Assembly (NCBI GenBank): GCA_030706635.1
Contig: JAUZOD010000008.1
Span: 43,670 to 107,669 of the forward strand
Origin: Bacteroidota bacterium
GTDB taxonomy: Bacteria; Bacteroidota; Bacteroidia; Chitinophagales; Chitinophagaceae
DNA length: 64,000 nt
Reading direction: 5' to 3'
Part shown: one piece after another, positions 19,467 to 63,832 of the stretch
Layout: the number at the start of each line of letters is the position of its first letter
Numbering within the stretch: position 1 is the first letter of the stretch
Position numbers and translations under genes: made by a program
Notes under the pieces: generated by a model
What the model saw: only the letters and a program-made list of their open reading frames with translations
The model's database searches: none
What the model was told of the DNA's origin: nothing

Positions 19467-19574
19467 AGTTGACAGTTGACAGTTGACAGTTGACAGTTGA
19501 CGGATGACGGATGACCGATCTCAGGCTCGAATCCGCAATTAAAGTCGGTCAACCGTCATCCGTCAACCGTCAAC
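19467..19574. repeat. Family A palindromic element A1
   Basis: The left arm starts with tandem GTTGACA modules, then GGATGACGGATGACCGA. The right arm TCGGTCAACCGTCATCCGTC is its reverse complement. About 28 of 30 positions pair. The loop carries the conserved core (19521-19544, TCAGGCTCGAATCCGCAATT). It lies between the divergent relA/spoT and tRNA-Leu, one of two elements not at a gene 3' end. Confidence 0.85.
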
Positions 19575-30107: not shown

Positions 30108-30192
30108 GTTGACGGTTTACGGATGACGGTTGACCGTCTTCAGGTGCGGATTTCCGCCTAAATTCGGTCAACCGTCATCCGTCAACCGTCAT
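30108..30192. repeat. Family A palindromic element A2
   Basis: GTTGACGGTTTACGGATGACGGTTGACCG pairs with the right arm CGGTCAACCGTCATCCGTCA. The loop core TCAGGTGCGGATTTCCGC starts at 30140. The right arm contains the TGA stop of the neighbouring MBL gene (30182-30184) and encodes its last residues. Confidence 0.88.
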
Positions 30193-34323: not shown

Positions 34324-35385
34324 ATGCAATTTTCTGCTGAGCAGATCGCGGCGCTGATAAATGGCAAAGTAGAAGGAGATCCGAATATTTCTGTGGATTC
34401 CTTTGGAAAGATCGAAGAAGCAAGGCAGGGACAGCTCGCGTTTCTGGCGAATCCAAAGTATGAAGATCATCTCTATACAACGAAGGCATCGGTGATCCTG
34501 GTGAATGACAGCCAGGCGCTCAGGGAAAAAATATCGTCCACGTTGATCCGGGTACCGGATGCTTATCTTGCCTTTGCCGCTTTACTTTCGAAGTACCAGG
34601 AAATGATGAAACAGCAACTCACCGGCATTCAGGAACCTTCCTATATTTCCAAATCAGCCATACTCGGTGAGCATATTTTTGTCGGCGCGTTTGCGTTTAT
34701 CGGCGAGCAGGTGAAGATTGGAAATAATGTAAAGATCTACCCTCAGGTTTATCTGGGCGACCGGGTAACCATCGGGGATGATACCATCATTCTACCCGGT
34801 GCGAAGATCTATTCTGATTGTGTGATCGGAAAAGAAGTGCTGATCCACGGCGGCTGCGTGATCGGCAGTGACGGATTCGGCTTTGCCCCGCAGCCGGATG
34901 GCAGTTTCAAAAAGATCCCGCAGATGGGCAATGTGGTGGTAGAAGATTTTGTGGAAATCGGCGCCAATACAACAATTGACCGCGCCACCATTGGGTCCAC
35001 TTTAATTCACACGGGCGCCAAACTGGACAATCTCATCCAGATTGCGCACAATGTGGAAATAGGCAATAATACCGTTATCGCTGCACAGGCGGGCGTTTCC
35101 GGAAGTACTAAACTCGGAAAGAATGTGATGGTTGGGGGCCAGGCGGGCATCGTGGGTCACATCCATATTGCTGATGGCAGCAAGATCAATGCACAGAGCG
35201 GCGTCACAAAATCCTTGAAGACACCCAACAGTGCCGTAACAGGAAGTCCCGCTTACGATTATACCAGTGCTCTGAGAAGCCAGGTGGCTAACCGCCATTT
35301 ACCGGATTTCGAAAAACGTATCCAGGAGTTGGAGAAAAAGCTGCAGGTATTACTGGATAGTGGACAGTTGACAATAGACAGTTGA
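34324..35385 (+). CDS. lpxD: UDP-3-O-acylglucosamine N-acyltransferase
   Basis: Adds the N-linked hydroxyacyl chain in lipid A synthesis, using acyl-ACP. The protein has the N-terminal uridine-binding domain ([20 protein letters not shown]) and left-handed parallel beta-helix hexapeptide repeats, with catalytic His in [14 protein letters not shown]. The C-terminal helix [16 protein letters not shown] is the usual end. Here the ORF runs on into [11 protein letters not shown], which is encoded by a half family A repeat that also supplies TGA. lpxA, lpxC and fabZ are not adjacent. Confidence 0.95.
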
Positions 35386-35393
35386 CAATGGAC
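35359..35393 (+). repeat. Family A half-element A6 in the 3' end of lpxD
   Basis: GGACAGTTGACAATAGACAG then TTGACAATGGACG: degenerate TTGACA modules with no matching right arm and no core. It encodes the last residues and stop of lpxD. Confidence 0.6.
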
Positions 35394-38753: not shown

Positions 38754-38823
38754 GATGGATGACGGTTGACCGATTTCAGGTGCGGATTCGCACGTAAAGG
38801 CCGTCAACCGTCATCCGTCATCT
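38754..38823. repeat. Family A palindromic element A3 between convergent genes
   Basis: GGATGACGGTTGAC pairs with GTCAACCGTCATCC. Core TCAGGTGCGGATTCGCAC (from 38776) can itself form a 5-bp hairpin, GTGCG-GATT-CGCAC. The right arm encodes the stop of the sugar-dehydrogenase-like gene; fumC stops 1 bp before the left arm. A stem this long may act as a bidirectional terminator. Confidence 0.88.
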
Positions 38824-40725: not shown

Positions 40726-40840
40726 CGTAATTTAACGTAGAAAATGTGAATATAAGTTATTGATATATAATCCGTTAAGAATTGAGCAGCGACGATTGCC
40801 AACTAGTTGTCTTTTCGGGATGAATACGCACTCGGTACCA

Positions 40841-41545
40841 TCAACTCTCAACTGAACTGGGTGTTAGTCTTTCAGCCCGATCCGTTTCCGGATGATTTTT
40901 TTTTACAAATCGTTTCTGGAAAAGAAAAAGGGCAATCACCCCCACGGAAATCGAAGCATCGGCAATATTAAAAACGGGACTGAAAAATTCAAACTCATCG
41001 CCGCCAACAAAAGGAATCCAGTGGGGGTAGTGACTTTTAATGAGCGGAAAATAAAGCATATCCACAACCCGTCCGTGAAGGAAACCGGCATAACCATGTG
41101 CCGGAAATAATTTAGCCACGTGGTCGTAGGTACTTTCTTCAAAAATGAGGCCGTAGAACATACTGTCGATCAGATTTCCGAGTGCACCGGCAAAAATTAA
41201 ACCTGCGCAGATAATATACCCGTTGTGATAATTTTTCTTAATGAGCGTCCGGATATAATACACGCCAAAAATAACCGCGGCAAGCCGGAACAGGGTAAGA
41301 AACATCTTTCCGAAATTCCCGCCAAACTTCCAGCCCCAGGCCATGCCTTCATTCTCTACAAAAAACAACTGAAATTTTTTACCGAGTACCTGGATACCGC
41401 TTTCATAAGGAGAAACCGGCAAACGGTAATAGGCTTCCCAGGTATGGCTTAAAGGCATATGTGTTTTGATCCAGATTTTCAACACCTGATCCGCCACGAT
41501 GATCAGCAGTACAATAAAAATGATCTTTCTTTCTTTAATATTCAT
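40841..41545 (-). CDS. lspA: Lipoprotein signal peptidase
   Basis: Inner-membrane aspartic peptidase that cleaves prolipoprotein signal peptides; clients here include the DUF6600-like lipoprotein. ATG MNIKERKIIFIVLLI chosen over the track's TTG (12 bases upstream). Four membrane helices are visible. Conserved motifs are VENEGMAWG, GALGNLIDSMFYG, GRVVDMLYFP (catalytic Asp) and VFNIADASISVG (catalytic Asp). The 234 aa are longer than the usual 160-170 because of an extended loop (ESTYDHVAKLFPAHGYAGFL) and a hydrophilic tail; long forms are common in Bacteroidota as far as I recall. Confidence 0.93.
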   Translation of the reverse strand: MNIKERKIIFIVLLIIVADQVLKIWIKTHMPLSHTWEAYYRLPVSPYESGIQVLGKKFQLFFVENEGMAWGWKFGGNFGKMFLTLFRLAAVIFGVYYIRTLIKKNYHNGYIICAGLIFAGALGNLIDSMFYGLIFEESTYDHVAKLFPAHGYAGFLHGRVVDMLYFPLIKSHYPHWIPFVGGDEFEFFSPVFNIADASISVGVIALFLFQKRFVKKNHPETDRAERLTPSSVES

Positions 41546-41599
41546 AATGAGCCGCAAATATAATAAACGTCCGCTTAAGCTTTTGCTAAAGCGAAATTA

Positions 41600-41679
41600 G
41601 TCGACGGTTGACCGTTGACGGACTTCAGGCGCGGACTCGCAATAGAAGTTGGTCAACCATCAACGGTCAACCGTCAACT
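41600..41679. repeat. Family A palindromic element A4
   Basis: GTCGACGGTTGACCGTTGAC pairs with the right arm of the same module type (about 21 of 23 pairs). The core, TCAGGCGCGGACTCGCAA, starts at 41624. It lies between lspA and murF-alr, with the TAA of murF-alr directly adjoining the right arm. Confidence 0.85.
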
Positions 41680-44156
41680 TATTCATAATAAACCCTTTTC
41701 ACCCGCTGGGAAATGCCCGCCAGCAGTTCATAGGGGATCGTTCCTGCCCAATGGGCCACCTGTTCAACCGGAAGTTCGGGTCCGAATACAATCAGTTCAT
41801 CCCCTTCCCTGGCCCCTTCAATGCCCGTAATATCCATCATGCTCATATCCATACAAAGACTGCCGATGGTTGGAACAAGCTTCCCCCTGTACCACATTTT
41901 ACCTACTCCGCTTCCCAGTGTCCGCGGATAACCATCGGCATACCCCAGCCTCACGGTAGCGATTTGCATGGAACGGTCTGCCACGCCCCTGCGGTTATAT
42001 CCTACTGTTTCTCCTGCGGCGATGGATTTAATTTGTGCAATCGTAGTCCTTAATGTTCCAACCGGTTTCAAATCCAGCAGATGAGAAGCAGCAGGATCAA
42101 TCCCGTATAGGCCAATACCCAGCCTCACCATATCCAGTTGTAAGGCAGGACTTCTGACCACGGCGGCAGAATTGGAAATATGTTTCAGGAAAGGATGCGG
42201 CAAGCGGCGCCCGAGTTGCTCCACCATAATATTGTATTGCTGAAACTGTTTCTGTGTAAACGCATCCTGCTGCAATTCCTCGCTGGCGGCGAGGTGACTG
42301 AAAACTGACTGCACATGAAAGCTTGAAAGGGAAAGGCTTTCCAGCAGCTCCGGAATCTCTCCGGCTGCAAAACCCAGGCGATTCATGCCAGTTTCCAGTT
42401 CAATATGAACGGGAAACATACTGATGGCTTCACGTTTCAGTCGTTTTGCCATAGCGCGCAGTATGGGAAAAGAATACAGCACAGGCTCCAACTGATGTTC
42501 CACCAGGGCATCCAATGCGGATTCCTCGGTATTCATAACGAGGATCGGTAACCGAATTCCACGTTGACGCAGCGCAACGCCCTCATCCGCGTATGCAACG
42601 GCCAGATAGTCTACTTTATGAAATTCCAGCAACCGGGCAATTTCAAATCCACCGCTTCCATAGGAAAAAGCCTTCACCATCGCCATAATGCGGGTGGAAG
42701 GCTTAAGCAATTGCTGATACTGTTTCAGATTATGCGCCATGGCCTCAAGGTTCACTTCAAGCGTGGTTTCATGAACCTGCAGGGAAAGCAGCCGGTCTAT
42801 ACGCTCGAAGCCGAATACCCTGGCGCCTTTCAGCAGAATGGCTTCATTCCGGAATCCATAAGATTGAAAGGACGAAATAAATGCGTCTGTGGAAGTATGG
42901 AATTCCTGGTCTTTTACAGAATCGTTGTCAAACAGACGACGATTTTCCGAAATCTGACTGCCGATGGCGATCAGCCGGTCCACTTTATATTTTTTCATCA
43001 GCATCGCGACCTCCCCATAAAGGTTTTCCGGCGAACGACCGCTCTCCAGAATATCCGACAAGATCAGGGTGCGTTTAGGGTGCTGTTGCTGCAGGGACAA
43101 AAACTCCAGTGCCATGTTCAGTGAACTGATGTCTGCGCTGTAACTATCATTGATAACTGAACAATGATTAATGCCGGTCTGGATTTCCATACGCATGGCC
43201 ACCGGGCTAAGCCGAAGCAATCTCGCAGGCAGCTCCGAAACGGATATGCCAAGATATAAAAGAACGGTTACCACCGTCAGCGTATTCTGCAGGGCAGCAT
43301 CATGCACAGAATTGATGCTGAGCGGCCATTGCTTTCCTTCATAAGAAAGCAATAGCTCCGTGGAATTAATTTCTTTCTGCAGGGAAAGCACCTGCAGAGC
43401 AGAACCTTTCTTCCCGAACGAAAAAAGTTTCACACGGGGATATCCAATTCGCCAGGTCTGTATCGTGTCGTTGAGCAATACATCATCCGCAGGGTAGATT
43501 AACGCTGCCGAATCTTCAAACAAACGGAGCTTTTCAAGGATTTTGGATTCCGTATTTTCAAATCCCTCATCATGGGCCCGGCCAATATTGGTAAATATCC
43601 CCAGGGACGGCCGGATGATCTGTGCCAATGTCTGCATCTCTCCCGCTCTGGAAATGCCAGCCTCGATTAATGCCAGTTCATGGGTCGATTGCATCTGCCA
43701 CACGCTCAGGGGTACGCCGATCCTGGAATTATAGCTTCTCGGACTACGCACGACGCGATATTTATCCTCGAGCAACTGGTTCAGCCATTCCTTCACGATC
43801 GTCTTTCCATTGCTGCCCGTAATGCCGATCACCGGGTAATCAAATTGCTGCCGGTGAGCGGCCGCGAGCCGCTGCAATGCCTCCAGACTGTCTTTCACTA
43901 AAATAATATTGGCTTCAGGAAATTCTTCCAGATCCACCGACTGATAAACTATAAAATTCCGCACTCCGCGACGGTAGAGATCATGTATAAAAGCATGGCC
44001 GTCTCTCCGGGGGCCAAACAAGGCAAAGAATAAAGAAGTTTCCGGAAATACCAGGCGCCGGCTATCGGTCAGCAATTGTTCAATTACATCATCCTGCCGG
44101 AATTGCAGCAGCGACCCATTCACAAGAGAAGCGATATGCCGGATGGTATAACCCAA
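41679..44156 (-). CDS. Bifunctional MurF ligase / alanine racemase fusion
   Basis: Two peptidoglycan enzymes in one 825-aa chain. The N-terminal half is MurF (adds D-Ala-D-Ala to UDP-MurNAc-tripeptide): DSRRLVFPETSLFFALFG, ATP loop GITGSNGKTIVKEWL, ALIEAGISRAGEM and NIGRAHDEGF. The C-terminal half, from about residue 460 (TTLEVNLEAMAHNL), is PLP alanine racemase: AMVKAFSYGSGG (PLP Lys), TVGYNRRG (catalytic Tyr) and LCMDMSMMDITG. A murF-alr fusion is known in Bacteroidota and would make and use D-Ala in one protein. ATG start. Confidence 0.95.
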   Translation of the reverse strand: MGYTIRHIASLVNGSLLQFRQDDVIEQLLTDSRRLVFPETSLFFALFGPRRDGHAFIHDLYRRGVRNFIVYQSVDLEEFPEANIILVKDSLEALQRLAAAHRQQFDYPVIGITGSNGKTIVKEWLNQLLEDKYRVVRSPRSYNSRIGVPLSVWQMQSTHELALIEAGISRAGEMQTLAQIIRPSLGIFTNIGRAHDEGFENTESKILEKLRLFEDSAALIYPADDVLLNDTIQTWRIGYPRVKLFSFGKKGSALQVLSLQKEINSTELLLSYEGKQWPLSINSVHDAALQNTLTVVTVLLYLGISVSELPARLLRLSPVAMRMEIQTGINHCSVINDSYSADISSLNMALEFLSLQQQHPKRTLILSDILESGRSPENLYGEVAMLMKKYKVDRLIAIGSQISENRRLFDNDSVKDQEFHTSTDAFISSFQSYGFRNEAILLKGARVFGFERIDRLLSLQVHETTLEVNLEAMAHNLKQYQQLLKPSTRIMAMVKAFSYGSGGFEIARLLEFHKVDYLAVAYADEGVALRQRGIRLPILVMNTEESALDALVEHQLEPVLYSFPILRAMAKRLKREAISMFPVHIELETGMNRLGFAAGEIPELLESLSLSSFHVQSVFSHLAASEELQQDAFTQKQFQQYNIMVEQLGRRLPHPFLKHISNSAAVVRSPALQLDMVRLGIGLYGIDPAASHLLDLKPVGTLRTTIAQIKSIAAGETVGYNRRGVADRSMQIATVRLGYADGYPRTLGSGVGKMWYRGKLVPTIGSLCMDMSMMDITGIEGAREGDELIVFGPELPVEQVAHWAGTIPYELLAGISQRVKRVYYE

Positions 44157-47634: not shown

Positions 47635-47745
47635 TATATTCGCCCCGCATTAAAAAACAACCTGGAAGAATAATTTTAAAAACCCTGGCTATAGCTTATA
47701 ACCATCCCTACTTGCTTAAAAATCCCGCTTCGGCGGGATTTTATT
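47635..47745 (+). ncRNA. Candidate small RNA with strong terminator (unconfirmed)
   Basis: TATATTCG (47635-47642) resembles a -7 box, and about 75-100 nt downstream stands a 10-bp TTCG-loop hairpin with T-run. Between them there is no ORF, and a short hairpin GGCTATA/TATAACC (47692-47708) is present. The unit could be a small RNA on the plus strand. The -33 box is poor, and the hairpin alone could simply be a terminator for the upstream surface-protein gene. Confidence 0.3.
47719..47742. terminator. TTCG-loop terminator, bidirectional
   Basis: AAAATCCCGC-TTCG-GCGGGATTTT, 10 bp, flanked by A- and T-runs on both sides. It lies just past the 3' end of the minus-strand surface-protein gene (after element A5), so it probably ends that transcript. 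Confidence 0.8.
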
Positions 47746-47749
47746 TTTT

Positions 47750-47828
47750 GTTGACAGTTGACGGTTGACCGATCTCAGGTGCGGATTCAAACCTAAAGTC
47801 CGTCAACTGTCAACTGTCAACCGTCAAC
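47750..47828. repeat. Family A palindromic element A5
   Basis: GTTGACAGTTGACGGTTGAC pairs with GTCAACTGTCAACTGTCAAC-type right arm. Core TCAGGTGCGGATTCAAAC starts at 47775. It lies between the gldF side and the surface-protein 3' end; the stop codon of the latter is 14 bp away. Confidence 0.85.
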
Positions 47829-47842
47829 AAAAATATATCGGG

Positions 47843-50821: not shown

Positions 50822-50844
50822 GGTGATAATGTAAAGTAATGATC

Positions 50845-50943
50845 AATGTGCTTATGTGAAAATGTGTAAATGCCCCGAGTTACTCCCTCTGAAAATGAAT
50901 TGTCCTCCATTTTCACATGAGCATATTTCCACTTTTACACATT
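50845..50943. repeat. Family B element B3
   Basis: AATGTGCTTATGTGAAAATG followed by TGTAAATG on the left; the right arm ends TTTTCACATGAGCATATTTCC and TTTACACATT. Modules of the form NNNATGTG. The nifS stop TAA (50935-50937) lies inside the right arm. Less regular than B1. Confidence 0.65.
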
Positions 50944-52101
50944 ATTTATCTCTTCCCTCAAACGCTTTACCATCCCCGTAACTTGTTCGATGGTAAAGTT
51001 TATTTCTTCCTCGCTCGTATATTTCCCGAGACCAAACCGTAAAGAACTGTGGGCCAGTCCGTCTTCTATTCCCATTGCCTTCAAAACATAACTGGGTTCG
51101 GGCGAAGCCGAGGTACAGGCAGAACCGGATGATACAGCAATTTCTTTACTCAAACCCATCATCAGCCTGTTGTCATCCACATATTTGAACGAAATATTGC
51201 TAACCTGGGGAAGCCTGGATCCGGTGTTTCCATTTACCTGCGTTTCTTCAATATTTAACAAAGCAACCTCCAGTTTGTTGCGCAGAGCTTTTATCCGGAG
51301 ATTATCCCCCTCCATCTCGTTCATACAGATTTCACAAGCCCTTCCAAATCCCACGATGCCCGGAACATTCAGTGTGCCGCTGCGCCTGCCGTCTTCGTGG
51401 CCGCCCCCGTCCATTTGGGCAGAAAGACGGACACGCGGATTTTTCCGGCGCACATACAATGCTCCCGTCCCCTTTGGACCATAAATTTTATGTGCGCTAA
51501 AGGCCATGAGGTCAATCCCGTCGCGAATCACATCAACCGGCACTTTTCCAACCGCCTGGGTTGCATCAGAAAAGAAAAGGATACCGTGCTTTTTTGCGAT
51601 CCTGCTGATTTCCTGAATCGGTTGCAGAACGCCAATTTCATTGTTGGCATACATCACTGCTATCAATATCGTTTCCGGCCTGATGGCTGACTGCAATTCT
51701 TCCAGATCAAGGAGACCATCCTGCTTAACTCCAAGAAAACTAACGTCTGCGCCCAATTTTTCAACGTGTTTACAGGTATCCAGCACAGCCTTATGTTCGG
51801 TAGCGACTGTAATAATGTGATTTCCTTTTGCCGCATACATCTCGAATACCCCCTTGATGGCAAGGTTGTCGGCCTCCGTGGCACCAGACGTAAAAACAAT
51901 TTCCTCCGGCAGCGCATGGATCAGCGCGGCCACCTGTTCCCTCGCCCATTTTACGGCTTCTTCTGCCTGCCAGCCAAAAAAATGATTGCGGCTGGCTGCA
52001 TTTCCAAACTTTTCGGTGAAATAGGGCAACATAATGTCCAATACCCGCGGGTCACAGGGCGTGGTAGCGTTATAGTCCAGATATACCGGCAGTTTGAGCA
52101 T
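50935..52101 (-). CDS. Cysteine desulfurase, NifS/IscS type
   Basis: PLP enzyme that takes sulfur from cysteine for Fe-S clusters and thio-modifications. The true start is the ATG MLKLPVYLDYNATTPCDPR; the track's longer N-terminus is encoded by repeat B4 and is not real. 388 aa with LDYNATTPCDPRV, TSGATEADNLAIKG, PLP Lys in AFSAHKIYGPKGTG, and the catalytic Cys loop SSGSACTSASPEPS near the C-terminus (IscS-type long loop). The stop comes from a family B module. Confidence 0.94.
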   Translation of the reverse strand: MLKLPVYLDYNATTPCDPRVLDIMLPYFTEKFGNAASRNHFFGWQAEEAVKWAREQVAALIHALPEEIVFTSGATEADNLAIKGVFEMYAAKGNHIITVATEHKAVLDTCKHVEKLGADVSFLGVKQDGLLDLEELQSAIRPETILIAVMYANNEIGVLQPIQEISRIAKKHGILFFSDATQAVGKVPVDVIRDGIDLMAFSAHKIYGPKGTGALYVRRKNPRVRLSAQMDGGGHEDGRRSGTLNVPGIVGFGRACEICMNEMEGDNLRIKALRNKLEVALLNIEETQVNGNTGSRLPQVSNISFKYVDDNRLMMGLSKEIAVSSGSACTSASPEPSYVLKAMGIEDGLAHSSLRFGLGKYTSEEEINFTIEQVTGMVKRLREEINNV

Positions 52102-52116
52102 GTACAAAATTACTGA

Positions 52117-52194
52117 GAAAATGGAGGAATGCGGAAATGTGCTGATGTGGAAATCCTTTGCCTGCCGAAGCCTGGCGAAGGCAGATGAAAATGC
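52117..52194. repeat. Family B element B4 between nifS and mce
   Basis: GAAATGTGCTGATGTGGAAA followed by the 27-nt GC-rich core that starts CTTTGCCTGCCGAAGCC (52156-52182). The core is identical, in reverse complement, to one in B2. This element lies between divergent starts and creates false N-terminal ORF extensions. Confidence 0.75.
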
Positions 52195-52256
52195 CCCCCC
52201 GGAAGCCGATCCACCACCTCTTAAAAATCGTTCGTTCTTTTTCCTCAACTTTGGGA

Positions 52257-53422: not shown

Positions 53423-53604
53423 TAATGTGAAAATGTGGAAGAGAATGTGTAAATGTGCTGATGTGCTAATGTGAAAATAGCTGAAAAACGTGAATTAAGT
53501 GTCTGATGAGTGTAAATCATCGGCCGTCATTTACACCCGCCTTCGCCAGGCTTCGGCAGGCAAAGCATTTTCACATTAGCACATTTTCACATCAGCACAT
53601 TTAC
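53423..53604. repeat. Family B element B2
   Basis: AATGTGAAAATGTGGAAGAG then TGTAAATGTGCTGATGTG on the left; the right arm is TTTTCACATTAGCACATTTT and CACATCAGCACATTTACCC. The core between the arms includes CCTTCGCCAGGCTTCGGCAG (53540-53559), the reverse complement of the B4 core. The fabF stop TAA (53601-53603) comes from a TAAATGTG module. Confidence 0.8.
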
Positions 53605-54860
53605 CCATTGGCCTCAAATTTTTTAACGATCACACAAGCATTATGCCCCCCGAAACCGAAGGTGTTGCTCAGTGCAGCGTTAACTGGTCTTTTTTGAGAC
53701 TTGAGAAAAGTAAAATTCAGGCGGGGATCCAGATCGGGATCATCGGTAAAGTGATTGATGGTAGGGGGAACGATATCGTGTACCACACTCATGATACAGG
53801 CGATAGCTTCCACTACGCCGGCAGCGCCAAGACAATGACCGGTCATGGATTTGGTAGAGCTGATATTGATTTTGAGCGCATGTTCTCCAAATACATCCAT
53901 GATGGCCCTTATTTCGGAAATATCCCCGAGTGGTGTTGAGGTGCCGTGGGTATTGATATAGTCAATATCAGCCGCCGTCATACGGGCATCCCGCAAAGCG
54001 GCATTCATTACATTCTTCGCGCCCAGGCCCTCAGGATGTGGCGCTGTGATATGGTGCGCATCGGCGGTAGCACCACATCCGGCGATCTCGCAATATATTC
54101 TGGCGCCCCTGGCCCGTGCATGTTCGAGCTCCTCCAGGATAACGGCTCCGGCGCCCTCCCCCATAACAAATCCATCCCGGTCTTTATCGTAAGGCCGGCT
54201 GGCCGTTTTAGGGCTGTCATTTCTTTCACTTAAGGCCTTCATGGCGTTAAATCCTCCAACACCCGCTTCACTAATCACACTTTCTGCCCCTCCCGCCAAA
54301 ATAATGTCGGCCATACCCAAACGGATCAGGTTGAAAGACTCCATAATGGCATTCGTGGATGAGGCGCAGGCGCTGACCACTGCAAAATTGGGTCCCCGGA
54401 AACCATGACGCATGGAGATTTGCCCTGCCGCAATGTCCAAAATCATTTTCGGAATGAAAAAAGGATTATAGCGCGGCGTACCGTCTCCTTTTGCAAAATG
54501 CACCACTTCCTCCTGAAAGGTGATCAGACCGCCGATACCGCTGGCGAATACGACGCCCACCCGGTCGGGGTCCACATTTTGTTTATTGATTCCGGCATCA
54601 GCTACCGCCTGATCGCTAACACCTACCGCCGTCTGGGCAAAACGGTCCAGTTTGCGTGATTCCTTTTTTTCGAGAAAACTGAGCGGATCAAAATTTTTCA
54701 GTTCGCAGGCAAAACGGGTTTTGAATTTGGTTGCATCGAAGAGGGTTATGAAATCAGCGCCGGAAACACCCTGTAGCAGGGCATTCCAATAATCATTCAA
54801 ATTATTACCCAGAGGAGTGAGCGCTCCAATTCCAGTAACTACAACTCTTTTCAATTCCAT
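53601..54860 (-). CDS. fabF: 3-oxoacyl-ACP synthase II
   Basis: Condensing enzyme that elongates fatty acids on ACP. The 419-aa protein has the Cys-His-His triad: VVSACASSTNAI (Cys at about 165), NTHGTSTPLGD and GHCLGAAGVVEAI. ATG start. It lies 101 bp downstream of acpP on the same strand, as in most genomes. A hairpin AATCCGC/GCGGATT (54895-54934) lies in the gap without a T-run. The stop codon sits in repeat B2. Confidence 0.96.
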   Translation of the reverse strand: MELKRVVVTGIGALTPLGNNLNDYWNALLQGVSGADFITLFDATKFKTRFACELKNFDPLSFLEKKESRKLDRFAQTAVGVSDQAVADAGINKQNVDPDRVGVVFASGIGGLITFQEEVVHFAKGDGTPRYNPFFIPKMILDIAAGQISMRHGFRGPNFAVVSACASSTNAIMESFNLIRLGMADIILAGGAESVISEAGVGGFNAMKALSERNDSPKTASRPYDKDRDGFVMGEGAGAVILEELEHARARGARIYCEIAGCGATADAHHITAPHPEGLGAKNVMNAALRDARMTAADIDYINTHGTSTPLGDISEIRAIMDVFGEHALKINISSTKSMTGHCLGAAGVVEAIACIMSVVHDIVPPTINHFTDDPDLDPRLNFTFLKSQKRPVNAALSNTFGFGGHNACVIVKKFEANG

Positions 54861-59194: not shown

Positions 59195-59240
59195 CCGGCC
59201 TGCAAAGGTAAGCAACCGGGGGCTTAGTTTTGGAGTATAG

Positions 59241-59336
59241 ATTAATGTGAAAATGTGCTGATGTGGAAATGTGTAAATGGAAGACGCCGGTTTCCCCATT
59301 TACACATCAGCACATTTCCACATCAGCACATTAATA
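59241..59336. repeat. Family B element B1 (most regular)
   Basis: Left arm AATGTGAAAATGTGCTGATG then TGGAAATGTGTAAATGG; right arm CCATTTACACATCAGCACAT then TTCCACATCAGCACATTAAT. Arms pair over about 40 bp. All modules are NNNATGTG with NNN = AAA, CTG, GAA or TAA. Loop about 16 nt, no core. The stop TAA of the small secreted protein (59331-59333) lies in the right arm. Confidence 0.85.
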
Positions 59337-59786
59337 CGTCGCGGCATAGTCCACATTCACATTAACCTGTGTGACTTTGCCAGGAATTACCTTAACAGGC
59401 GCCACGTTATTCTGACCGTCAAAATAATTGGCATAGAATAAGGCGTCTTTTTTGGTGAAAAGGGAATATTGACCGGGGGGAAGCGACACCGAGAAATAAC
59501 CACTGGTATCTGATTCTGTGGTTCGAACGAGCCGGGTTTTGATACCGCTGTAAAAAGCAGACTCGTCAACGCGGGTCAGCTGGTTGAGGTTGGTCAGTTC
59601 GTAAATATATAATGTGGCCTGGATGCCCTTGGGGGGACTGAGTTTAACGTCAGGAGACGGCATCCGGTTGCCGGAAACCCAGAAGATATATCCTTCGATG
59701 CCTGTTTTTTTCGCCTGTTTGAATGCCGGAAACAGCAGAATGGGCAGCCATACGACCACAAGCATCATATGTTTTTTAGGTAGCAT
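59331..59786 (-). CDS. Small secreted carboxypeptidase-regulatory-like protein
   Basis: A 151-aa precursor with an N-terminal signal or anchor helix (MMLVVVWLPILLFPAF). The rest is a single beta-sandwich that resembles a CarboxypepD_reg/peptidase-associated domain (GIEGYIFWVSGNRMPSPDVKLSPPKG..., SGYFSVSLPPGQYSLFTKKD). Function unknown. It lies between mfd and the divergently oriented protease gene. The C-terminal codons and stop fall in repeat B1. Confidence 0.72.
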   Translation of the reverse strand: MLPKKHMMLVVVWLPILLFPAFKQAKKTGIEGYIFWVSGNRMPSPDVKLSPPKGIQATLYIYELTNLNQLTRVDESAFYSGIKTRLVRTTESDTSGYFSVSLPPGQYSLFTKKDALFYANYFDGQNNVAPVKVIPGKVTQVNVNVDYAATY

Positions 59787-62800: not shown

Positions 62801-63665
62801 CAGTTTTGATTCCTGTACGGGTGCTTACAGTTATTATCCCATTTCCAGTAACACCATAGATGTCTATCCCACCACACCCAATCCACAGGCCGGTGCGGTA
62901 ACTGGAAATTCAGCCAGCGATACGGGTGCAGTATTCCTTCTGAACTTATCCGTTCCGACACCAGGGAACCATGTCCTGATTATAGTAGCGGACAACGGCG
63001 CCACCTTATTCCGGAATAACAATATTACTTCGAACAACTATCCTTTCGGGATTCCTGGCGTGTTTTCCATAACCGGCAACAGCGCGATTGACCAGGCAAA
63101 TTGCAAGGACACTACATTCTATCAGAGTTATTATTATTTCTTATACGATCTGAGGCTGACCCTGAATAAATGTCCTTCCCCGCGCATTCCCGTGCTTGCA
63201 AAAACTCCAACAGCAGCCGTGATCACCCTGGCAGGAAATCTTTTATCCAGCAACTATTCATCCGGCAACCAATGGTACTTTAATGATACCCTGATTGCAG
63301 GCGCAACAGGCCCGACAGATTCCGCTTTTATTCCCGGAGTTTACAAGGATGTTGTGTTTGACAGCCTGGGCTGCTCGCTGGTCTCAAATGAAATTTCCTA
63401 TTCACTGGGAAGCGATATTGGCCTGAAAACAACACCCAATCCGAATAATGGAACCTTCCACCTTCAGTTCTATGTTGCCCAAAGTGCAAACACCGGAGTG
63501 AGCGTGGTGAATGCCCTGGGCCAGAAAATTTATGAGGCCGATTATCCCGCCTTCGGAGGCTTTTTCAGTAAAACCATTAGCCTAGGCCCTGTGAGTGCGG
63601 GCATGTATGTGCTGAAAGTACAGATTGGAGGGAAGAAGTATGTGAGGAAGATCATGGTTTATTAA
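59874..63665 (+). CDS. Secreted subtilisin-like protease with GEVED, Ig-like and T9SS domains
   Basis: S8 family peptidase exported by T9SS. 1263 aa. Signal peptide (LVLVALFVFSRVPAQ); subtilase domain with the triad Asp in IALWDGGKVRDTH (about 129), His in NDHSTHVSGTL (about 156) and Ser in SGTSMSSPAAAGSSF (about 380); a P-domain-like or jelly-roll segment (ILENNLTNGSSFSLPV); a GEVED domain (VYIDYNNNGSFTDSGE ... GETEDYRVQF); two Ig/CARDB-like domains; and a C-terminal sorting domain (TTPNPNNGTFHLQFYV, MYVLKVQIGGKKYVRKIMV). Such proteases digest extracellular protein. The subtilase His motif is HSTHV rather than HGTHV. Confidence 0.9.
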   Translation: MDPMIQKKLTPLVLVALFVFSRVPAQVKTNVAELRRAAIQSSARYQEMAARLLRLSKQNGWPLFISMKGGNRAVLYGIDPRGLPLYVATNDNIISAATIGTSKLWPGGSTGLNLSGSSPGLKGKIALWDGGKVRDTHQELTGRVVQKDGASVLNDHSTHVSGTLIASGVNPAAKGMSFGAQQLLAYDFNNDITEMLTEAPNLLISNHSYGTIAGWNLNTDNNHWEFMGNPGDTVDYKFGYYNDQAQAWDSIAYNAPYYLIVKSVGNNRDVNGPAVGQPYYRPNAAGVLISAGNRPAGISNNDGYDIIPTYGNAKNIMAIGAVNPIPGGYSQPGDVVLAEFSSWGPTDDGRIKPDLVADGINVLSSVSTSDNAYAIYSGTSMSSPAAAGSSFLLQEYYAKLHGGAFMRSATLKGILIHTADEAGPADGPDYQYGYGLIDMPKAASVITSNNTDQLILENNLTNGSSFSLPVIASGKGPLVVTLSWTDPAGKVDEVNLLNNPARKLVNDLDLRVIGNSTTYTPWILNRKNPGNAATNGDDTLNNLEKIQISNAIPGKTYTLQVTHKGTLQKGAQAYSLIASGVGGQNYCSSAATSSAGTRIDQVIIDNDSNIVTNPPGCTTYTDYTNKTIHLQSSRAASFAVKLSSCDASTAQRVVKVYIDYNNNGSFTDSGEMVLVSPVLSGGSITYSSGAIPVPEGLKTGSSTLLRIVVQETTDTSAVHPCGSYGNGETEDYRVQFVAPSNDVALSGIVDPLPSFCQADSERISVRIKNAGTSGQENFPVSLRVSSGGITLVDVSTIYPDTVLANGNSTYTFQPTFNAEAGKTYIVTASTKLANDQDTTNNTITDTLTVGSGSATSVTGDAEICSTNPPQAGLKANVSDSSDAILWYESQTATTPLAAGVQATTSVIPSDKTYYLGVNDLNTSVGPKSKMEFASGGYNFFQGNFIRFSNKVPLTITSSRLYVGNGGKVTFIVADLASFDSCTGAYSYYPISSNTIDVYPTTPNPQAGAVTGNSASDTGAVFLLNLSVPTPGNHVLIIVADNGATLFRNNNITSNNYPFGIPGVFSITGNSAIDQANCKDTTFYQSYYYFLYDLRLTLNKCPSPRIPVLAKTPTAAVITLAGNLLSSNYSSGNQWYFNDTLIAGATGPTDSAFIPGVYKDVVFDSLGCSLVSNEISYSLGSDIGLKTTPNPNNGTFHLQFYVAQSANTGVSVVNALGQKIYEADYPAFGGFFSKTISLGPVSAGMYVLKVQIGGKKYVRKIMVY

Positions 63666-63668
63666 GTG

Positions 63669-63832
63669 AGATGGTAATGATGTATCGTGGATGGTATATA
63701 GTTTATGGTGAATGGGCTTCATTGGCGTATCCGCACCTGATATCATCCACTATAATCATTAACATAGTATCGGGGTATTTCACCTGATATCCATCTGCCA
63801 TGAACGATATACCATCCACGATGCATCAACCA
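63669..63832. repeat. Family C palindromic element with family A core
   Basis: Left arm TGATGTATCGTGGATGGTAT pairs with right arm ATACCATCCACGATGCATCA; similarity extends to about 40 bp. Between them GGCGTATCCGCACCTGA (63724-63740) is the reverse complement of the family A core TCAGGTGCGGATNCGC, here in the opposite orientation. A partial second copy, CACCTGATAT, follows at 63781. The stop of the last gene (TGA, 63826-63828, minus) lies in the right arm. Confidence 0.8.

Follow-up and report, generated by a model that had tools for sequence, protein, structure and literature searches.

Behind a subtilase gene in a soil bacterium of the family Chitinophagaceae lies a long palindrome, at positions 63669-63832 of the window (the whole analysed stretch of 64,000 nucleotides). 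This locus raises the question of how a palindrome with apparently unrelated arms can carry the core of another palindrome family. The initial annotation placed it in a family of its own (family C) and described its interior as the inverted core of family A, a group of palindromes in the same window. The element, here called E6, and its parts are as follows.

63669-63832, no strand assigned: E6, compound palindrome of family C, located between the end of the subtilase/T9SS gene and the contig end
63678-63715, no strand assigned: left arm, degenerate heptads ..CGTGGAT GGTATAT AGTTTAT GGTGAAT GGGC
63708-63750, + strand: core with one flanking heptad per side, covariance model E = 2.2e-10
63756-63794, + strand: extension with a second, partial core (..AACATAGTATCGGGGTATTTCACCTGATATCC)
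63791-63828, no strand assigned: right arm, CCATCTG CCATGAA CGATATA CCATCCA CGATGCA

Structure of the element at 63669-63832

The palindrome is real, with two arms of 38 nt that are 84% complementary, and its interior holds the inverted family A core as described, since the 17-nt sequence GGCGTATCCGCACCTGA occurs exactly at 63724-63740 (+). With three or fewer mismatches, this 17-mer has 2 occurrences in the window against 0.09 expected. A covariance model of 44 positions was built from 40 elements of three species, with the window element at 38.7 kb in the training set and E6 outside it. In the window, the model matched E6 on the + strand and the five family A elements on the - strand, the latter with E values from 9.8e-18 to 3.2e-10.

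19489-19574, - strand: E1, GTTGACR heptads, core match 19510-19553
30108-30191, - strand: E2, core match 30129-30172
38754-38819, - strand: E3, core match 38765-38808
41595-41683, - strand: E4, core match 41614-41657
47745-47833, - strand: E5, core match 47764-47807

The arms of E6 had been described as having no similarity to the TTGACGG modules of family A, and this part of the annotation has to be given up. Family C arms are also composed of heptads (GTGGATG, GTATATG), and their register and distance from the core are identical to those of the GTTGACG arms. GTGGATG and GTTGACG differ at 2 of 7 positions, and GTTGATG is an abundant intermediate. E6 is a damaged, compound member of the family. 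Its core is followed by one heptad, then by a segment that contains another, incomplete core (CACCTGATATCC, near 63782-63794) and finally by the right arm; the long interior stretch recurs only on contig C120 of the same genome, near 13.54 kb (C120:13540). The upstream gene, a subtilase with a T9SS tail, ends at 63665, and E6 starts 4-13 nt past the stop codon. About 45 bp of the left flank of E6, up to the last bases of the subtilase gene, recurs beside another copy (L094), and this common flank suggests that copying may take flanking sequence along.

A one-sided core between heptad arms

The genome of the window (G000, 4.58 Mb) was searched for the core with up to two mismatches, and the reversed pattern served as a control. 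The search returned 73 matches, compared with 2 for the control. Palindromic heptad arms, counted by eye, flank every one of the 30 matches with zero or one mismatch and 33 of the 43 with two. A core occurring at the chance rate and mostly without arms, which the initial annotation had named as evidence against a functional module, was looked for genome-wide and did not appear. The proposal of one core in different arms stands in so far as a conserved module is combined with several arm sequences far above chance, but these arm sequences are not unrelated.

A hairpin finder placed families A and C and an intermediate type D in one scheme, in which all arms are tandem heptads in the single register GT-NN-A-Y-G. 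The canonical unit has 86 bp and consists of four heptads, GA, a core of about 26 nt (the 26-nt core), TC and four further heptads. The most frequent number of heptads per arm is four in each of the three species that carry the family (61/92, 18/36 and 13/22 arms). The heptad words in 53 aligned elements are GTTGATG (84), GTTGACG (54), GTATATG (28), GTGGATG (28) and minor variants. At most positions, the arms pair at about 90% or more, and the type changes on both sides; at one arm pair, T-A and C-G occur in a ratio of 22:17. The covariation score of the arms was 0.177 against 0.121 in shuffled alignments (reached in 0 of 500 shuffles), where only the exchange of pair types counts, as the aligned elements are hairpins by selection. 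Adjacent elements had the same arm type in 33 of 47 pairs among the matches listed, against 24 expected (p = 0.006). The ends of the elements have no strong flanking consensus, just a slight excess of AAAGG. At L098 / L148 (contig C133 of G000, near 14.0 kb), a C-type heptad pair continues directly into about ten perfect GTTGACG units; arm types mix inside one array there.

The core behaves differently from the arms. In the 53 aligned elements, one half of it, AATYCGCACCTGA, is strongly conserved and the other half much less so. Watson-Crick pairing within the core is weak (36-42% at distances 7-8 from the axis), and the core pairs poorly at positions of high sequence conservation. The core is therefore conserved as a one-sided sequence and the arms as a stem, because core pairing is weak while arm pairing is strong and covarying.

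In a sample of about 1 Mb, the elements with a readable core orientation divided 40:38. This orientation has no link to GC skew or to the coding strand, and no replication-strand bias was found. The inverted orientation of the core in E6 is thus a matter of chance and has no special meaning. Of 29 cases beside tandem genes, 13 have the conserved half in the sense direction of the adjoining gene and 16 do not. One-sided conservation together with random orientation is more in keeping with a site that acts as DNA than with one that acts as sense RNA, and a sense-RNA motif was rejected as a candidate on the grounds of this random orientation relative to genes.

The initial annotation proposed a protein- or RNA-binding site. 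In a DNA version of this explanation, a DNA-binding protein with a chromosome-organising or regulatory role would bind the core, which arms of convenience would present in cruciform shape. Such a site would agree with a core that is conserved on one side across several arm types and with genome-wide dispersal in random orientation. The same data show no strand polarity, the core is weak or lacking in about a quarter of the C/D elements (a core score <15 in 11/41), and occurrence in three species only would be odd for a housekeeping site. We consider this explanation very improbable.

Placement behind genes

Genes around 79 elements were called with our own ORF caller. Both neighbouring genes were found for 72 elements, with 45 in tandem, 24 in convergent and 3 in divergent settings; none was intragenic. 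For comparison, gaps of at least 60 nt in the window comprise 28 tandem, 2 convergent and 6 divergent cases. The median distances from the hairpin to the stop codon and to start codons are 7 nt and 66 nt, respectively, and E3 lies exactly between two converging stop codons. The stop codon is inside the element at 20/93 gene ends and is TGA in 70% of these, compared with 40% elsewhere.

This placement could equally mean an RNA function, which counts against a mobile element. A hairpin in the 3'-UTR may stabilise the mRNA 3' end, block read-through or be a target of RNase III, in which case the RNA stem would be under selection. Covarying arms, the short distance to the stop codon and the near absence of divergent settings are all in line with such a role. 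E5 lies between a stop codon and an ordinary terminator and so would be transcribed, and the Xanthomonas heptads, which have the same placement, are mostly transcribed (PMC4692102). However, the core is not readable as sense RNA, because its conserved half belongs to the mRNA strand in no more than 13 of the 29 tandem cases. There is also no T-run past the hairpin (T fraction of 0.23 in tandem and 0.31 in convergent settings in the next 10 nt), for which reason an intrinsic terminator was rejected. Finally, an RNA role leaves the spread to at least 100 sites and the empty orthologous sites unexplained. We regard an RNA-level hairpin as an alternative, but an unlikely one.

Distribution in the genus and the family

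The elements are dispersed, with the core at more than 100 unlinked sites in the soil bacterium of the window. The covariance model has at least 145 matches in this genome, at least 148 in G006 and 96 in G019, where 150 candidates were scored per genome and both strands of one place may each count. Among the 33 genomes of the genus, the family is confined to these three sister species; G005 and G017 have one model match each, and the remaining 28 have none. The best E value is 4.7e-10 in G017 and 2.6e-4 in G005, and the single copies in these two genomes are possibly founder copies. The core was not found in 199 other Chitinophagaceae genomes, which were searched with stricter filters. No exact core match was found in GTDB contigs, a set that may lack close relatives of the window. 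Phages and viral contigs gave no match, so spread by them was rejected. Plasmid matches were limited to short heptad runs, from cyanobacteria and Paenibacillus. An assembly artefact was also rejected, as independently assembled related species carry the family at the same sites; heptad hairpins in isolates, for example in Pinibacter and Niastella, further counter it.

Heptad hairpins at gene ends, with other words and mostly without the G000 core, seem to be widespread in Chitinophagaceae. At 80 loci in other members of this family, 14 of 18 periodic hairpins had a period of 7, and none was found in shuffled DNA or in 50 kb of E. coli. The words vary between species and inside genomes; they include AACGCNN, AATTAAT and GTTGTTA in Pinibacter, TTGACAG, GTGAGGT and AGAGCGA in SZAS-41, and yet others in Niastella and Flavihumibacter. 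The gene that precedes E4 has downstream hairpins with unrelated heptads in SZAS-41 and Pinibacter. No common core was seen in these hairpins of other Chitinophagaceae. As these hairpins seemingly also occur in culturable species, their function and spread can be tested.

Gain or loss and differing arms at orthologous sites

Elements are gained or lost at orthologous sites, and arm type differs at the same site between species. The E3 and E4 sites are empty in both G006 and G019; the relatives, at 75-80% identity, are too distant to read a target-site duplication, and none was seen. The E1 site also has hairpins in the other two species, of type A in the window's genome and G006 and of type D in G019, and the E5 site has type A arms in the window and D/C-type arms in G006. 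Similar differences were found at L060 (C, compared with A in G019), L036 (A and D), L146 (C and A), two L047 sites (C, compared with A/D and D) and the L064 site (D, compared with A/D and C/D). In addition, two unlike arms can be present in a single element, as in L245 of G019 (left arm A, right arm D), in L235 and at the E2 site in G006 (left arm C-type, right arm A-type). Two C-type arm pairs without a recognisable core, L170 4102-4242 (G019) and L171 4556-4717 (G006), occupy one orthologous site that corresponds to about 40742-40871 in the window. C heptads are therefore not unique to G000. Because sister species have different heptads at one and the same site, strain genomes can be used to trace how repeat arms turn over.

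The clearest single case is L245 and its G000 counterpart L002, in which the core is identical at 27/29 positions while the right arm is type A in one and type D in the other. Overall, cores at shared sites were not more alike than random pairs (p = 0.36), and neither were the arms. Vertical descent of cores at shared sites was accordingly not significant overall, with this one clear case. Because of the low likeness of shared-site cores, rewriting in place is not separable from re-insertion; insertions that recur at preferred sites would give the same picture, except at L002/L245. For the same reason, a kept core with rewritten arms is clear at single sites only.

Arm differences of this kind might also be a mutational by-product, in which slippage and template switching grow heptad palindromes and ectopic conversion spreads the sequence with no machinery and no function. 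Mixed arms, unequal arm lengths and long heptad arrays are expected from such processes, as are the many unrelated heptad words across Chitinophagaceae with their predominant period of 7. A possible collapsed copy points in the same direction: L043 of G000 holds only GTTGACCGTCAAC where G006 (L233) has a full element; this could be a copy that has collapsed or a target that is still vacant. In contrast, a 26-nt core at so many unlinked sites needs copying between loci, and an arm length of four units is too regular for free slippage. A mere by-product is improbable on this evidence.

Nature of the elements

Many copies, a shared core, heptad arms in a fixed register and placement past stop codons characterize these elements. 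The explanation that we prefer, and to which we give about even chances, is a clade-specific family of short dispersed palindromes that represents a non-autonomous REP/MITE-like DNA element. The family is most likely undescribed and so far unnamed, and unusual among bacterial repeats. Its members are most likely dispersed, non-autonomous DNA elements whose core serves for recognition and whose stem arms can be replaced; for these elements we infer spread, a partner enzyme and a function. They would spread at the DNA level because an enzyme or binding protein acting in trans reads the asymmetric core AATYCGCACCTGA when a hairpin or cruciform presents it at its tip. For the arms, the role would be that of a stem and not of a sequence tag; they could therefore drift, slip and be converted heptad by heptad, or even wholesale, if the two halves stay complementary. 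Insertion past stop codons would be tolerated because genes and promoters are spared. An element may itself close an overlapped gene, since the TGA of A/D heptads recurs every 7 nt and thus in all three frames. In such palindromes, the stem would be replaceable while site and core stay, which would separate the identity of the family (core) from its shape (arms).

MITEs are short, non-autonomous, dispersed elements with palindromic ends. In contrast to MITEs, the family in G000 yielded neither a target-site duplication nor a defined terminal repeat nor a parent transposon. The transposase search covered Y1_Tnp (PF01797) and found no such gene in the 99.9% complete genome, with control matches in 5/14 genomes; this counts against a mobile element, and mobilisation by a RAYT was rejected on this basis. 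No autonomous partner was seen. Lagging-strand insertion was also rejected, as there is no link to GC skew or the coding strand, unlike in IS200/IS605-type single-strand transposition.

A wider version of the mobile reading is that the heptad-armed hairpins of Chitinophagaceae form a mobile DNA class of their own, with the core as identity, overwritable arms and a putative core-reading enzyme that targets post-stop DNA. This extension is speculative and rather unlikely.

Comparison with described repeats

The nearest known systems are the GGGAATC heptads of Xanthomonas and the REP/REPIN elements. Rehm et al. 2015 describe GGGAATC heptads in Xanthomonas and GGGGAYT heptads in Nostoc, with a preference for four units (PMC4692102). 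In the same study, Xanthomonas has 70-75 inverted heptad pairs per genome, and 83% of the sites are common to relatives; the heptads overlap stop codons or lie at most 50 bp away, next to aligned or convergent genes and with no leading/lagging bias. The G000 family is thus similar in its 7-nt units, four-unit preference, inverted pairs and stop-codon placement. This likeness (four units, stop codons) suggests a common rule for bacterial 7-nt repeats. The systems differ in that Xanthomonas has a single G-rich heptad with G-quadruplex ability, whereas G000 has several heptads per genome; neither a common central core nor a change of heptad type per site is described in the portion of PMC4692102 considered. 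The arms of the G000 family form a long stem around a clade-specific core common to the copies. Its units read GTNNAYG, with GG at unit borders only and no G3 runs, instead of a GGGNATC unit with four G3 tracts.

REPs have 20-40 bp with GTAG or CGTC tags, and REPINs go with RAYTs (PMC3116915, PMC3733652). The G000 family resembles them in its high copy number and in being palindromic, intergenic, located at gene 3' ends, non-autonomous and species-specific, but REPs lack heptad arms (PMC3116915, PMC3733652), and no RAYT was found in G000. As in REPs and REPINs, the heptad elements are extragenic and mostly downstream of genes. CGTC occurs only within A heptads, there is no terminal unpaired tag, and C and D arms are free of CGTC. 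The TAACTGA heptamers (MacGregor 2015) are intergenic and occur in Beggiatoaceae, cyanobacteria and some Bacteroidetes (PMC4679880). They differ in being direct repeats without palindrome or core, and in Beggiatoaceae they are mostly located just upstream of start codons (PMC4679880). A literature search found no description of the present heptad arrays in this sense, and an Rfam search of the window gave no match except a tRNA.

Other repeats in the window and in relatives

Family B hairpins, which have 8-nt units (AATGTGNN) and lack the core of the heptad family, are located in the window at 50837-50945, 53430-53625 and 59236-59350. An octad hairpin in Longitalea (L272) resembles them. At 52116-52250, the window has an octad half-element, and the same site in G006 (L222) and G019 (L240) has a type A heptad element with a core. 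At 35346-35391, the heptad array GTGGACAGTTGACAATAGACAGTTGACAATGG spans the end of the ORF 34324-35385 and has no second arm to match. In SZAS-41, the interior of the TTGACAG hairpins often starts with CTTTAA, as in the G000 family. In L280 and L279 7504-7619, the hairpins of two species behind the same gene both contain GGTTCAT-N6-ATGAATC, but their six-base loops are inverted relative to each other.
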